Assembly: GCF_027533845.1 (NCBI RefSeq)
Contig: NZ_JAPZVN010000003.1
Coordinates: 558,001 to 622,000 of the forward strand
Direction: 5' to 3'
Length of the DNA: 64,000 nt
DNA from: Streptomyces sp. RPT161
Lineage (GTDB): Bacteria > Actinomycetota > Actinomycetes > Streptomycetales > Streptomycetaceae
Positions 58,661 to 63,743 of the stretch are shown in pieces. Every line of letters starts with the position of its first letter. Position 1 is the first letter of the stretch. Position numbers and translations under genes: made by a program. The notes beneath the pieces were generated by a model that worked only from the letters and a program-made list of their open reading frames with translations, made no database searches and was not told the origin of the DNA.

Positions 58661-61171
58661 TCACCCGGCGGCCGGATTCTTCCCGTCCGGCAGCCGGGCC
58701 GCGAGATACGGCGCGGTACGGCTGGCGGGCTGGGCGGCGACCTGGGCGGGGGTGCCCGCGGCCACGATCCGGCCGCCCTCGTCGCCACCGCCCGGGCCGA
58801 GGTCGATGACCCAGTCGGCGGCGGCCACCACATCCATGTCGTGCTCCACGACGACCACCGAGTTCCCCGCCGCCACCAGCTCGGACAACTGGCTCATCAG
58901 CACCTCGGTGTCGGCCGGATGCAGCCCGGTGGTCGGCTCGTCCAGCAGGTAGAGGGTGTGCCCGCGATCGCGGTGGGTGGCCCGCTGCAGCTCGGCCGCG
59001 AGCTTGACGCGCTGCGCCTCGCCGCCGGACAGCTCGGTGGCGGGCTGGCCCAGCCGCAGATAGCCGAGGCCCACCTGGCGCAGCGTGCGCAGGCTGCGAA
59101 CCGCGGCGGGCACGTCGGCGAGGAACTCGGCCGCCGCGTCGACCGTCAGCTCCAGGACGTCGGCGATGGAGGCACCCCGGTACGTCACCTCCAGGGTCTC
59201 CCGGTTGTAGCGGCTGCCGTGGCACTCCGTACAGGGCGCGTAGCCACCCGGCAGGAACAGCAGCTCCACGCTGATGAAGCCCTCGCCCTGGCAGGTCTCG
59301 CAGCGGCCACCCGCGACGTTGAACGAGAAGCGGCTGGCGGTGTAGCCGCGCGACTTCGCCTCCTCGGTCGCCGCGAACAGCTTCCGTACCGCGTCGAACA
59401 GCCCGGTGTAGGTGGCGAGGTTGGACCTCGGGGTACGGCCGATGGGCCTCTGGTCGACACGCACGAGCCGGTGGACGGCCGAAAGCCCCTCGACGGCGGC
59501 TACTTGTCGAGCCGTCAGGTCGGCTGTCGTCTCCTCGGCCTGGGCGGCGGTGCCCAGGTGCTCCGCCAGCACCTCGGCGAGGACCTGGCTGATCAGCGTC
59601 GACTTGCCGGACCCGGACACTCCGGTGACGGCGGTGAACACGCCGAGCGGTACGTCCGCGTCCAGGTCGCGCAGATTGTGCCGGGTGACACCGCGCAGCC
59701 GCAGCCACGCCGAGGGTCGGCGGGGCCTGCGGGCCGCCTCGGCGCCGGGCGGCGTACGGAACAGGAAGCGCCGGGTGGCCGACTCATCGACGTCCCGCAG
59801 CGCGGCGACCGGGCCGCTGTGCAGGATCCGCCCGCCCCGCTCCCCCGCGTGCGGCCCCACGTCGACCAGCCAGTCCGCGCGGCGCACCAGGTCCATGTCG
59901 TGCTCGACCACCAGCAGCGAGTTCCCCGCGGCGATCAGCCGTTCCAGCACGGTGAGCAGCGCGACGGTGTCCGCCGGATGCAGCCCGGCCGACGGCTCGT
60001 CCAGCACGTACACCACGCCGAACAGGCCGGACCTCAACTGCGTTGCCAGCCGCAGCCGTTGCAGCTCGCCCGCGGACAGCGTGGTGGTGGCCCGGTCCAT
60101 TCCCAGGTAGCCGAGGCCGAGTTCGGTCAGCACCTCGATGCGCGCGACCAGGTCGCGGGCGATGGTCCGGGCCACACCGTCGCCGGGGGCGTCGGCGGTC
60201 GGCCGCAGCACCTCGGCGAGCCGGGCCAGCGGCATCGCCGCCAACCGCGCGATGTCGTACCCGGCGAAGGTGACCGCCAGCGCCTCCGGCCGCAGCCTGC
60301 GCCCGTCGCACACCGGGCACCGCTCACTGACCAGGAACCGCTCGGCACGGGCGCGCAGCGCGGGGCTCTTGGAGTCGGCGAAGGTGTGCAGCACATACCG
60401 CCGTGCGCTCTGGTAGGTGCCCTGGTACGGGCGTTGGATGCGGTCCGCCTCCCGTACCGGGTGAACGGTGACCACCGGCTGCTCGTCGGTGAACAGGATC
60501 CAGTCGCGGTCCCGTTGCGGCAGTTCGCGCCAGGGGCGGTCGGTGTCGTAGCCGAGGGCGTCCAGGATGTCCCGCAGGTTCTTGCCCTGCCAGGCGCCCG
60601 GCCAGGCGGCGATCGCGCCCTCGCGGATGCTGAGCCCCGGGTCCGGCACCAGCGAGCGTTCGGTGACGCGATGCACCGTGCCCAGACCGTGGCACTCGGG
60701 ACAGGCGCCCGCCGCGGTGTTCGGCGAGAACGCGTCGGAGTCCAGCCGTTCGCCCGCGTCGTGCGGATACGTTCCGGCGCGCGAGAGCAGCATCCGCAGC
60801 GAGTTGGACAGCGTCGTCACGGTGCCCACCGAGGAGCGCGAGGTCGGCGCGGAACGGCGCTGCTCCAGCGCCACCGCGGGCGGCAGCCCGGTGATCTCGC
60901 CGACCTTGGGCACCCCCACCTGGTGGATCAGCCGCCGGGCGTACGGCGCGACGGACTCGAAGTAGCGGCGCTGCGCCTCCGCGTAGATCGTCCCGAAGGC
61001 GAGTGAGGACTTGCCGGAGCCGGACACTCCGGTGACCACGACCAGCGCGTCGCGCGGCAGGTCCACATCGACACCGCGCAGGTTGTGCTCACGCGCGCCG
61101 CGGACCCGCACGAACGGATCGTGCGGGTCGTGCGCCGGCGGTACGGAGGCGGCCGGGGCCGGGTCGGTCAT
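58661..61171 (-). CDS. UvrA2-type ATPase (UvrA paralogue without UvrB-binding domain)
   Basis: The 836-residue protein has two ABC ATPase domains, with Walker [14 protein letters not shown] and a second [11 protein letters not shown]. Signatures are [12 protein letters not shown] and [12 protein letters not shown], with Walker [13 protein letters not shown] and [12 protein letters not shown]. Zinc-module Cys pairs are [16 protein letters not shown] and CETCQGEG. After the first zinc-free portion the chain runs directly from [16 protein letters not shown] to the zinc module, so the UvrB-binding insertion of true UvrA is absent. This defines UvrA2/DrrC-like proteins, found in antibiotic self-resistance or DNA-damage tolerance. 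ATG 61171 has GGAGACG upstream. Confidence 0.92.
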
Positions 61172-61215: not shown

Positions 61216-62148
61216 TTACGGTTTGATCCGCAAGTCCTCCGCGCCGCGCGGGTTACGCCGCGACACCAGACGGTAGCCGTCGCCGTCCCGCCGTACGCGA
61301 CCGCCGGTCGGTGGGGCGAAATGGGTGCCGAGCAGCAGCGTGTCGGTCTGCGCGACCTCGGCCAGCAGTGCCTGGCGGGTGCGCACGGCCTGCGCCGGGT
61401 CGGTGTCGAAGACGCTGCACACCTCGGTCCTGGCCAGCTGTACCGGATGGTGCATGCAGTCCGCGGTGATCAGCGCCGCGCCACCCGCCCCGGCCAGCCG
61501 CACCGTTACCTGCCCGGGAGTGTGGCCCGGCGCCGGTAGCAGGGTGAGCCCGGGAACGACCTCAAGACCGGTGGGCGGTACGTCCACCAGATCCAGCAGG
61601 CCGCTGTCGCGCACCGGGTCGACGGACTCGGTGAACATCCGCCGCCGCTCCGGCGGGAGATCGGCCGAATACCAGTACTCGTACTCGACACGGGTCGTCA
61701 GATAGCGGGCGTTGCGGAAGGTGGGCACCCAACGGCCGTTGTCCAGGCGGGTGTTCCAGCCGATGTGGTCGGCGTGCAGATGGGTGTTGACCACCAGGTC
61801 GACGCTCTCCGGCGGAAAGCCGATGGCGGCCAGCCGGTCGAGGAACGGGGTGTCCAGGCCGCTCCACCGCGGGTTCGGCAGCGTCTTTCCGTTGCCGATC
61901 CCGGTGTCGACCAGGACCTTGCGGCCCGCGACCTCCACCGCGAACGTCTGGACGGCGCCGACGAGTTCACCGGACGCGTCGACGTGGTCGGGGGCCAGCC
62001 ACGGGGTGAGCGGCACGAGATCGGACGGCAGGTCGGCGAAAACCCGGGGGCCCATGCCGGTGAGCGCCAGCTCGTCCACCCGGTGCACGGTGATGGCGCC
62101 GATCCGCCAGCTCGCCGCCGGGCCCTCGAAGTCCTGAGTCGCTGTCAT
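61216..62148 (-). CDS. MBL-fold hydrolase, AHL-lactonase-like
   Basis: The 310-residue protein has the lactonase-type site: NTHLHADHIGWN, His in PAPGHTPGQV, Asp in ITADCMHHPV and His in LLGTHFAPP. An Asp-based DTGIGNGKT strand lies earlier. The sequence resembles the AidC/AttM and phosphodiesterase-like metallo-beta-lactamase branch, in which some members open homoserine-lactone rings. Specificity is not decidable here. ATG 62148 follows AGGATC. Its gap to the UvrA2 gene is 44 bp, so cotranscription is possible. Confidence 0.82.
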   Translation of the reverse strand: MTATQDFEGPAASWRIGAITVHRVDELALTGMGPRVFADLPSDLVPLTPWLAPDHVDASGELVGAVQTFAVEVAGRKVLVDTGIGNGKTLPNPRWSGLDTPFLDRLAAIGFPPESVDLVVNTHLHADHIGWNTRLDNGRWVPTFRNARYLTTRVEYEYWYSADLPPERRRMFTESVDPVRDSGLLDLVDVPPTGLEVVPGLTLLPAPGHTPGQVTVRLAGAGGAALITADCMHHPVQLARTEVCSVFDTDPAQAVRTRQALLAEVAQTDTLLLGTHFAPPTGGRVRRDGDGYRLVSRRNPRGAEDLRIKP

Positions 62149-62280: not shown

Positions 62281-62901
62281 GTGCGTGACGAGACGATCAG
62301 CGGATTCCTGGAGCGACTGGCCGCGCGGCAGCCGGCCCCCGGCGGCGGTGCGTCGGCCGCGCTGCACGCTGCGCAGGGGGCGGCCCTGCTGGGCATGGTG
62401 GCCCGCTACACCACCGGCGCCAAGTACGCGGAACACCACGAGGCCATCGAGCGGATCATCACCGCGACCGACGAGCTGCGGGCGGCGGCCCTGCAACTCG
62501 CGCAGGACGACGCGGCGGCGTTCGGGGCCGTGGCGGACGCGTACCGGTTGCCCAAGGGCACCGACGAGGAGAGGGCGGCGCGCTCGGCCGCCATCGCCGC
62601 GGCCCTCGTCGGCGCCGCCTGGCCGCCCTCGGAGGTCATCGGCGTCGCCGAGCAGGTGGTGACCGCGGCTGAAGGACTGCTCCCGGTGGGCAACCGCAAC
62701 GTCCTGTCCGACGTCGCCGCCGCGGTCGAGGCCGCCCGCGCGGCGGCCACCACCGCCCGGGTCAACATCGAGGTCAACCTGGGCGGCATCACCGACGAGC
62801 GGGCGCGCGCCGAACTGGCCGAGGTGGCCGGCGAGGTGGACGGCATCGCGACCCGCGCCGACCGGGTCACCGCCACGGTACGCGCGGAGATCGCCGAATG
62901 A
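62281..62901 (+). CDS. fchA: Methenyltetrahydrofolate cyclohydrolase / cyclodeaminase-type protein
   Basis: The 206-residue FTCD_C/FchA-family protein opens FLERLAARQPAPGGGASAAL, and has QDDAAAFGAVADAYRLPKGT, then NVLSDVAAAVEAARAA and NIEVNLGGI. The fold supplies 5,10-methenyl-THF cyclohydrolase (as in acetogens and methylotrophs) or formimino-THF cyclodeaminase. No histidine-degradation genes flank it, but folD overlaps its stop. Because that FolD has lost its cyclohydrolase Lys, the cyclohydrolase reading is favoured. GTG 62281 is preceded by CCGGAGGA. Confidence 0.88.
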   Translation: MRDETISGFLERLAARQPAPGGGASAALHAAQGAALLGMVARYTTGAKYAEHHEAIERIITATDELRAAALQLAQDDAAAFGAVADAYRLPKGTDEERAARSAAIAAALVGAAWPPSEVIGVAEQVVTAAEGLLPVGNRNVLSDVAAAVEAARAAATTARVNIEVNLGGITDERARAELAEVAGEVDGIATRADRVTATVRAEIAE

Positions 62902-63743
62902 CCGCCACCGCCCTGTACGGCAGGGAACTCGCCGCCGCCATCCGCGCCGAGACCACCGAGCGGGCGGCGGCCCTGACCGCCTCCGGCCGTCCGCCGAAGC
63001 TGGCGGTGGTGGTGGCGACGGCCGACGAGTCCAGTGCCTGGTACGTGCGGTCCATCGCCAAGGCGGCCGGGCAGAGCGGCATCGCCTGCGACATCGTCGA
63101 CCTCGGGCCCGACGCGGCGGCGGACACCATCGTGGCGGCTCTCGACCGCCTCAGCGCGGATGGCTCGGTGCACGGGGTGATGCTGCAGACGCCGCTGCCC
63201 GGCGGGGCCGCGTTGGAGGAGCTGGCCGGTGCCATCGCGTTCGGCAAGGACGTGGACGGCGCGAATCCGCTCAGCCTCGGCCGGTTGGCGGCCGGACTGC
63301 CCGCCCATCCTCCGGCCACCGCCGAGGCGGTGGTGGCGTTGCTCGACCACTACGGCGTCGAACTGGCCGGACGGCGGGTCGCGGTGGTCGGCCGCTCCAC
63401 GGTGGTGGGCAAGCCGCTCGCGCACCTGCTGCTGGACCGGAACGCCACGGTCACCGTCTGCCATTCGCGCACCGTCGACCTGCCGGGCGTCACCTCGACC
63501 GCGGACGTGGTCGTGGCGGCCGCAGGGCGGCCCGGACTGATCACCGCGGACCATGTCCGCCCCGGCGCGACCGTGATCGACGTCGGCACCAACCCGACGT
63601 CCGACGGCGGGCTGACCGGTGACGTGGCCGCCGAGGCGGTCGGCCATCGCGCGGCGGCGCTCACCCCGGTCCCGGGCGGCGTGGGACCGGTCACCACGGC
63701 GCTCCTGCTCCGCCACACGGTGAGGGCCGCGGCCGACCGCTGA
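62898..63743 (+). CDS. folD: FolD-like methylenetetrahydrofolate dehydrogenase lacking the cyclohydrolase lysine
   Basis: The 281-residue FolD homologue has substrate-site DVDGANPLSLGRL, NADP-binding VVGRSTVVGKPLAHLLL and C-terminal TPVPGGVGPVTTALLL. The YVxxK site reads YVRSIAK: Tyr49 is kept but Ile53 stands where E. coli has the catalytic Lys54. Loss of that Lys abolishes cyclohydrolase but spares dehydrogenase activity in studied FolD enzymes. Thus this copy probably oxidises 5,10-methylene- to methenyl-THF only, and the overlapping FchA (ATGA) would complete hydrolysis to 10-formyl-THF. A second, canonical FolD is expected elsewhere in the genome. The operon ends at a strong stem-loop. 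Confidence 0.88.
   Translation: MTATALYGRELAAAIRAETTERAAALTASGRPPKLAVVVATADESSAWYVRSIAKAAGQSGIACDIVDLGPDAAADTIVAALDRLSADGSVHGVMLQTPLPGGAALEELAGAIAFGKDVDGANPLSLGRLAAGLPAHPPATAEAVVALLDHYGVELAGRRVAVVGRSTVVGKPLAHLLLDRNATVTVCHSRTVDLPGVTSTADVVVAAAGRPGLITADHVRPGATVIDVGTNPTSDGGLTGDVAAEAVGHRAAALTPVPGGVGPVTTALLLRHTVRAAADR

Follow-up and report, generated by a model that had tools for sequence, protein, structure and literature searches.

The gene pair fchA-folD2 very probably encodes a split form of bifunctional FolD, in which a dehydrogenase-only FolD (FolD2) would be complemented by a separate cyclohydrolase (FchA), as judged from sequence comparison. With less confidence, although we consider it more likely than not, we propose that FolD2 belongs to a deep lysine-less FolD branch that is annotated as bifunctional and that, together with FchA, would replace bifunctional FolD; most Nocardia and several other Fhs-less actinomycete lineages would have no other FolD-type route to 10-formyl-THF, and this branch should naturally resist Lys54-anchored inhibitors, such as carolacton. 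FolD, a proposed drug target, is commonly treated as a single bifunctional step. If our reading is true, whole actinomycete lineages, including Nocardia, would divide the making of 10-formyl-THF between two proteins, each reaction could be regulated and inhibited on its own, and the common FolD annotation would be wrong, with two lysine-less FolDs in annotated records labelled bifunctional. Separate dehydrogenases and cyclohydrolases are already known from anaerobes. The Ile/Leu actinomycete clade and its sole-FolD status in most Nocardia are apparently new to the literature searched: in the full-text listings and passages covered, there was no report of an Ile/Leu FolD, or of replacement by FolD and FchA, in Nocardia or other actinomycetes.

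Gene organization and protein families

The window, which is the whole stretch of 64,000 nucleotides analyzed here, carries fchA and folD2 on the same strand (Table 1). The four-base overlap between the two genes claimed in a preliminary description of this DNA was indeed present, as an ATGA read directly from the sequence, and we infer that translation of fchA and folD2 is coupled through it. Divergent from fchA lies a metallo-beta-lactamase-fold-like ORF, beside an 836-aa ORF with the look of a UvrA-type ABC protein, both as judged by eye. Nothing reached the gathering threshold when six stretches were searched against Rfam.

Table 1. Features at and beside the fchA-folD2 locus, in window positions.
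Feature	Position	Strand	Description
fchA-like gene	62281..62901	+	206 aa, GTG start, FTCD_C family; predicted methenyl-THF cyclohydrolase
folD-like gene (folD2)	62898..63743	+	281 aa, ATG start; predicted dehydrogenase-only FolD
Codon 53 of folD2, ATC (Ile)	63054..63056	+	aligned to E. coli Lys54, the lysine of the cyclohydrolase step
ATGA overlap	62898..62901	+	4 bp, fchA stop and folD2 start
836-aa ORF	58661-61171	-
Metallo-beta-lactamase-fold-like ORF	61216-62148	-

The FchA-like protein matched PF04961 (FTCD_C; 176 bits, Pfam). Its sole NCBIfam match was the FchA model NF045657, at 147 bits against a curated cut-off of 275, and we therefore call the protein FchA-like and do not assign it to that equivalog. 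The solved structure nearest to it by sequence was the methenyl-THF cyclohydrolase 7vg4 (E 2.9e-32), with FTCD 1tt9 (E 1.1e-20) and 1o5h (2.1e-19) ranking behind. The 7vg4 entry, deposited as a methenyl-THF cyclohydrolase, is presumably the FchA of Methylobacterium, a protein of the same FTCD_C family, which works with MtdA and not with FolD. The cyclohydrolase type previously claimed for FchA agrees with the nearest structure; the equivalog score falls short of its cut-off.

FchA could alternatively be a 5-formimino-THF cyclodeaminase, in an operon that would process the formimino groups released when histidine or purines are degraded and feed methenyl-THF to FolD2; PF04961 includes cyclodeaminases, and in Peptoclostridium acidaminophilum a histidine-degradation cluster contains both ftcD and an FTCD_C gene. 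However, FTCD_N was found in none of the 15 genomes searched, the host genome included, which makes a formimino-folate role of FchA unlikely, the solved structure closest in sequence is that of a cyclohydrolase, and no third gene recurs widely beside the pair, so that we regard this alternative as very improbable. When neighboring ORFs were clustered over 36 stretches, using a simple GC filter for gene calling that missed some genes, including some fchA and folD copies, no cluster besides the fchA/folD pair occurred in more than 6 stretches. Shared neighbors were mostly found between close relatives, and no wider pathway could therefore be read from the neighborhood.

Both FolD domains were matched by FolD2 over its full length (PF00763, 89.7 bits; PF02882, 194.1 bits; Pfam). 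Against the NCBIfam bifunctional FolD models, it scored 270.3 bits at best for a cut-off of 421, and none of the 25 NCBIfam models listed, from 30 matches, reached its cut-off. The FolD fold is intact in an AlphaFold model of FolD2 (mean pLDDT 92.1), which has a TM of 0.95 to C. jejuni FolD 3p2o.

Residue 53 and the active site of FolD2

FolD2 carries the motif WYVRSIAK, with Ile53, and the counterpart in E. coli FolD is YVASKRK; in alignment to what we take to be the E. coli FolD reference sequence, Ile53 falls at Lys54. Independently of the E. coli sequence, Ile53 also aligns to Lys in the PDB FolDs of C. jejuni and T. thermophilus, and the position given to Ile53 in the preliminary description held in both comparisons. 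FolD2 is therefore without the cyclohydrolase lysine, a membership feature of bifunctional FolD. The dehydrogenase elements, also said earlier to remain, were kept, with Tyr49, Gln97, and Asp120 corresponding to catalytic residues 50, 98, and 121 of E. coli FolD.

In the scheme that we propose, FolD2 would oxidize 5,10-methylene-THF to 5,10-methenyl-THF, both this activity and the direction of flux being predictions, and FchA would hydrolyze methenyl-THF to 10-formyl-THF. Such uncoupling might, as the preliminary description suggested, allow the cell to halt at methenyl-THF or to adjust flux. The cofactor of FolD2 would probably be NADP+, given that its GRS and CHSRT motifs point to NADP use. 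FolD2 probably lost the methenyl-THF hydrolysis step along with the lysine. In a study on E. coli FolD, the K54N variant kept ∼19% of its dehydrogenase activity while its cyclohydrolase activity was undetectable, the residual activity was insensitive to carolacton, and spontaneous hydrolysis of methenyl-THF is possible (PMC5688156). On the other hand, a study on silkworm MTHFD describes a K53A variant with cyclohydrolase activity near that of the wild type (kcat/Km 0.097 vs. 0.13; PMC6443876), and loss of the lysine therefore need not abolish this activity. FolD2 might then still be bifunctional, either through a different residue or with a modest activity of its own, with FchA merely boosting hydrolysis, an alternative that the E. 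coli variant speaks against and on which the distribution of FchA also bears, as described below.

The lysine was missing well beyond the window. A similarity search with FchA yielded 58 loci (L006-L063), one of which is that of the window; 53 of the 58 had a FolD within ∼1.5 kb, and residue 53 was Ile in 48 and Leu in 5 of these FolDs (53/53, the window's own included). The five loci without a FolD were L058, at a contig end; L061 and L063, from a Nocardia-matched genus, where FolD sits on another contig; that of G026; and one of the two FchA loci of G133. The best 80 named FolD relatives had Ile (53) or Leu (27) at this position (80/80), although the search that ranked them first had Ile/Leu members as its seeds, so that they say nothing about the rarity of Lys in the clade. 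An FchA match was present in the fetched stretch of 70 of these relatives, and the other 10 were all Nocardia.

The residue table was reduced from 289 to 228 rows by dropping matches of <180 columns, non-best FolDs of a locus, L051 (in-frame stop), and duplicates. It held an Ile/Leu set of 195 rows (50% identity limit, >200 aa) and a Lys set of 29 rows (>200 aa), and since residue 53 was the criterion that separated the two sets, this column proves nothing within them. In the Ile/Leu rows, Tyr was kept in 192/195, Gln in 194/195, and Asp in 194/195. Close to the folate site, the clade has changes of its own relative to E. coli (Cys58 to Ala, Gly145 to Ala, and PCTP to PATA), and these, together with a drift of the Tyr motif (SFARVIE, STRPLERA) in some Ile/Leu FolDs from two genera of one family, could suggest that the substrate of FolD2 is another pterin or C1 adduct, or that FolD2 is a paralogue without catalytic function. 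We find this hardly credible, both for the near-complete retention of Tyr, Gln, and Asp and because proteins of this clade are the sole PF00763 FolD in ten genomes, where a core job is likely. We therefore retain the view of FolD2 as a predicted methylene-THF dehydrogenase; the Ile/Leu state is fixed in the clade, and Ile53 is thus not chance.

Distribution of FchA and Ile/Leu FolDs in actinomycete genomes

The 7.69 Mb host genome encodes exactly two PF00763 FolDs, which are FolD2 and a Lys-type FolD (WYVNGKHRD) at G000:C1:716352-716696, a second copy whose possible existence had been raised earlier. By eye, ORFs beside the latter resemble PurH, SucC/SucD, and the dehydrogenases of isocitrate and malate, with PurH confirmed by Pfam. 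FchA is single copy, and a search for Fhs in the host genome gave no match. Given that a Lys-type FolD is also present, fchA-folD2 does not replace the bifunctional route in this organism, where it is an extra route beside the Lys-type FolD. The division of the FolD reaction put forward in the preliminary description has strong support from comparative genomics, but not as a replacement in this host.

The Ile/Leu FolD clade was present in 31 of 150 family-sample and 56 of 296 class-sample genomes; the design is a minority one, as the earlier wording of an unusual actinomycete organization implied, but it is not exotic, given its presence in all 59 sampled genomes of the Nocardia-matched genus. 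FchA accompanied it in every clade-bearing genome of the family sample (31/31). Residue 53 was Ile or Leu in all 30 genomes in which it could be read, the remaining one being a fragment without that residue (G131). Outside the clade, 5 of 119 family-sample genomes had an FchA match, of which two were weak; the other three (G004, G031, and G026 of the window's genus) combined a strong FchA with a Lys-type FolD alone. In G026 (L065, L138), fchA is 87% identical and has kept its syntenic place, and a search of the genome gave a single FolD, of the Lys type; no folD2 was detectable in the syntenic fchA stretch of this close relative.

In the class sample, all 56 clade FolDs read as Ile or Leu, and FchA was found in 38 of the 56 genomes. 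Constant co-occurrence of the Ile53 form with fchA, an expectation of the preliminary description, thus held in the family sample and had 18 exceptions in the class sample. These exceptions are kin, from two genera of one family (f18), and so represent few independent events; more generally, the sampled genomes are related and hence not independent. A second FolD read as Lys-type in every one of them (18/18), so that, in the class sample, FchA was missing only where a Lys-type FolD was present. Outside the clade, 13 of 240 class-sample genomes had an FchA match, 12 of them remote and one (G234) at a contig end.

A single PF00763 FolD, of the Ile/Leu type, was found in ten genomes (G166, G179, G203, G218, G250, G282, G309, G377, G387, and G408), of which G179 belongs to the Nocardia-matched genus and G218 had two FolD matches by protein search, one of them confirmed by PF00763. 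FchA and PurH were each present in 10/10. No Fhs match in these ten genomes exceeded the cut-off; G309 had one of 52 residues and 19.7 bits, under the cut-off. Completeness was 87% for G387 and at least 92% for the others. In G133 and G146, by protein search alone, the sole FolD is seemingly of the Ile type, and each has two FchA genes. Whether FchA and a FolD with dehydrogenase activity alone suffice is put to a natural test in single-FolD genomes. They also bear on a still-bifunctional FolD2: the 18 clade genomes without an FchA match would suit it, but all of these hold a Lys-type FolD, and none of the ten single-FolD genomes is without FchA. Weighing these counts with the variants described above, we consider a FolD2 with its own cyclohydrolase activity unlikely, and prefer a division of labor between FolD2 and FchA.

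All 59 genomes sampled from the Nocardia-matched genus carry an Ile/Leu FolD. One PF00763 match was found in 54 of them, with Leu in 54/54, and the other five had two to four matches, each including the Leu form. FTCD_C was detected in 57 of the 59 genomes and in 52 of the 54 with a single FolD; the two without it were G431 (78% complete) and G470 (rated 99% complete, in 1340 contigs). In this genus, several kilobases often separate the FTCD_C gene from folD, or the two lie on different contigs. From gene content, the fchA-folD2 pair appears to be the sole FolD-type route to 10-formyl-THF in Nocardia and in some further lineages.

Two further arrangements were observed. One genome of the Nocardia-matched genus (G472; L243, L272, L273, and L274) has four FolDs, two with Lys, one with Leu, and one with Ile beside FchA. 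An Ile-type FolD, with an annotation as bifunctional, is encoded on the Paenarthrobacter plasmid pYJN5-2, which is typed as conjugative (L309:4001-4882), and the 8.8 kb read around it gave no match to FchA.

Known systems and lysine-less FolDs outside the clade

FolD2 shares its fold, full-length homology, and the active-site Tyr, Gln, and Asp with the bifunctional FolDs of E. coli (1b0a) and M. tuberculosis (2c2x), whereas its clade has Ile or Leu in place of Lys54 and a separate cyclohydrolase-type gene in the operon. Acetogens and clostridia, too, have a separate FchA beside FolD in their C1 metabolism, and C. perfringens reportedly has both; the genome of the window differs from these organisms in being without Fhs. 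FolD and FchA are described together for C. autoethanogenum (PMC9040625) and for Sporomusa, with folD labelled bifunctional in the latter (PMC12003927), and the likeness of these named acetogens to our pair is by description. FolD2 is likewise comparable, as a predicted dehydrogenase-only member of the FolD family, to two enzymes reported elsewhere, which are the monofunctional, NADP-dependent methylene-THF dehydrogenase of Peptostreptococcus productus (PMC6443876), again likened by description, and the monofunctional, NAD-dependent MTD1 of yeast (1edz; PMC11064299). The similarity of FolD2 to MTD1 is remote (E 3.2e-07), and MTD1 differs in using NAD.

The resemblance to anaerobes drawn in the preliminary description found some support. 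The lysine is also missing from the FolDs of two anaerobes, Collinsella aerofaciens and the clostridium Acetoanaerobium noterae, but it is replaced by Ala, compared with Ile/Leu in the FolD2 clade, and the active-site Gln is gone as well. In Collinsella aerofaciens (L346:2096-3585), an FTCD_C gene is directly followed by the FolD, which is annotated as bifunctional, whereas no FTCD_C was found among the ORFs neighboring the Acetoanaerobium noterae FolD, the record having FTCD_C-type matches elsewhere.

A tree of 70 rows gave the Ile/Leu clade (52 rows) a support of 100/98; a branch at 98/94 had every one of the 16 Lys rows on the same side. When Proteobacteria, Clostridia, an archaeon, and the two anaerobes were added, the 16 Lys rows again fell on one side (96/91), and the other side held the Ile/Leu clade, the two Ala-type FolDs, and the divergent pair L097 and L264. 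The grouping of the Ile/Leu and Ala types reached just 90/80, with long branches. With all Lys rows on one side of one branch in both trees, repeated independent losses of the lysine are not shown. At L097 (L097:6809-11874; G140), a FolD without the lysine, in which the active-site Gln and Asp are also missing, is overlapped by a divergent FTCD_C gene. Genes of the MTHFR and GCV_T families lie near this pair, and together they may form a cluster for THF-dependent demethylation and methyl oxidation.
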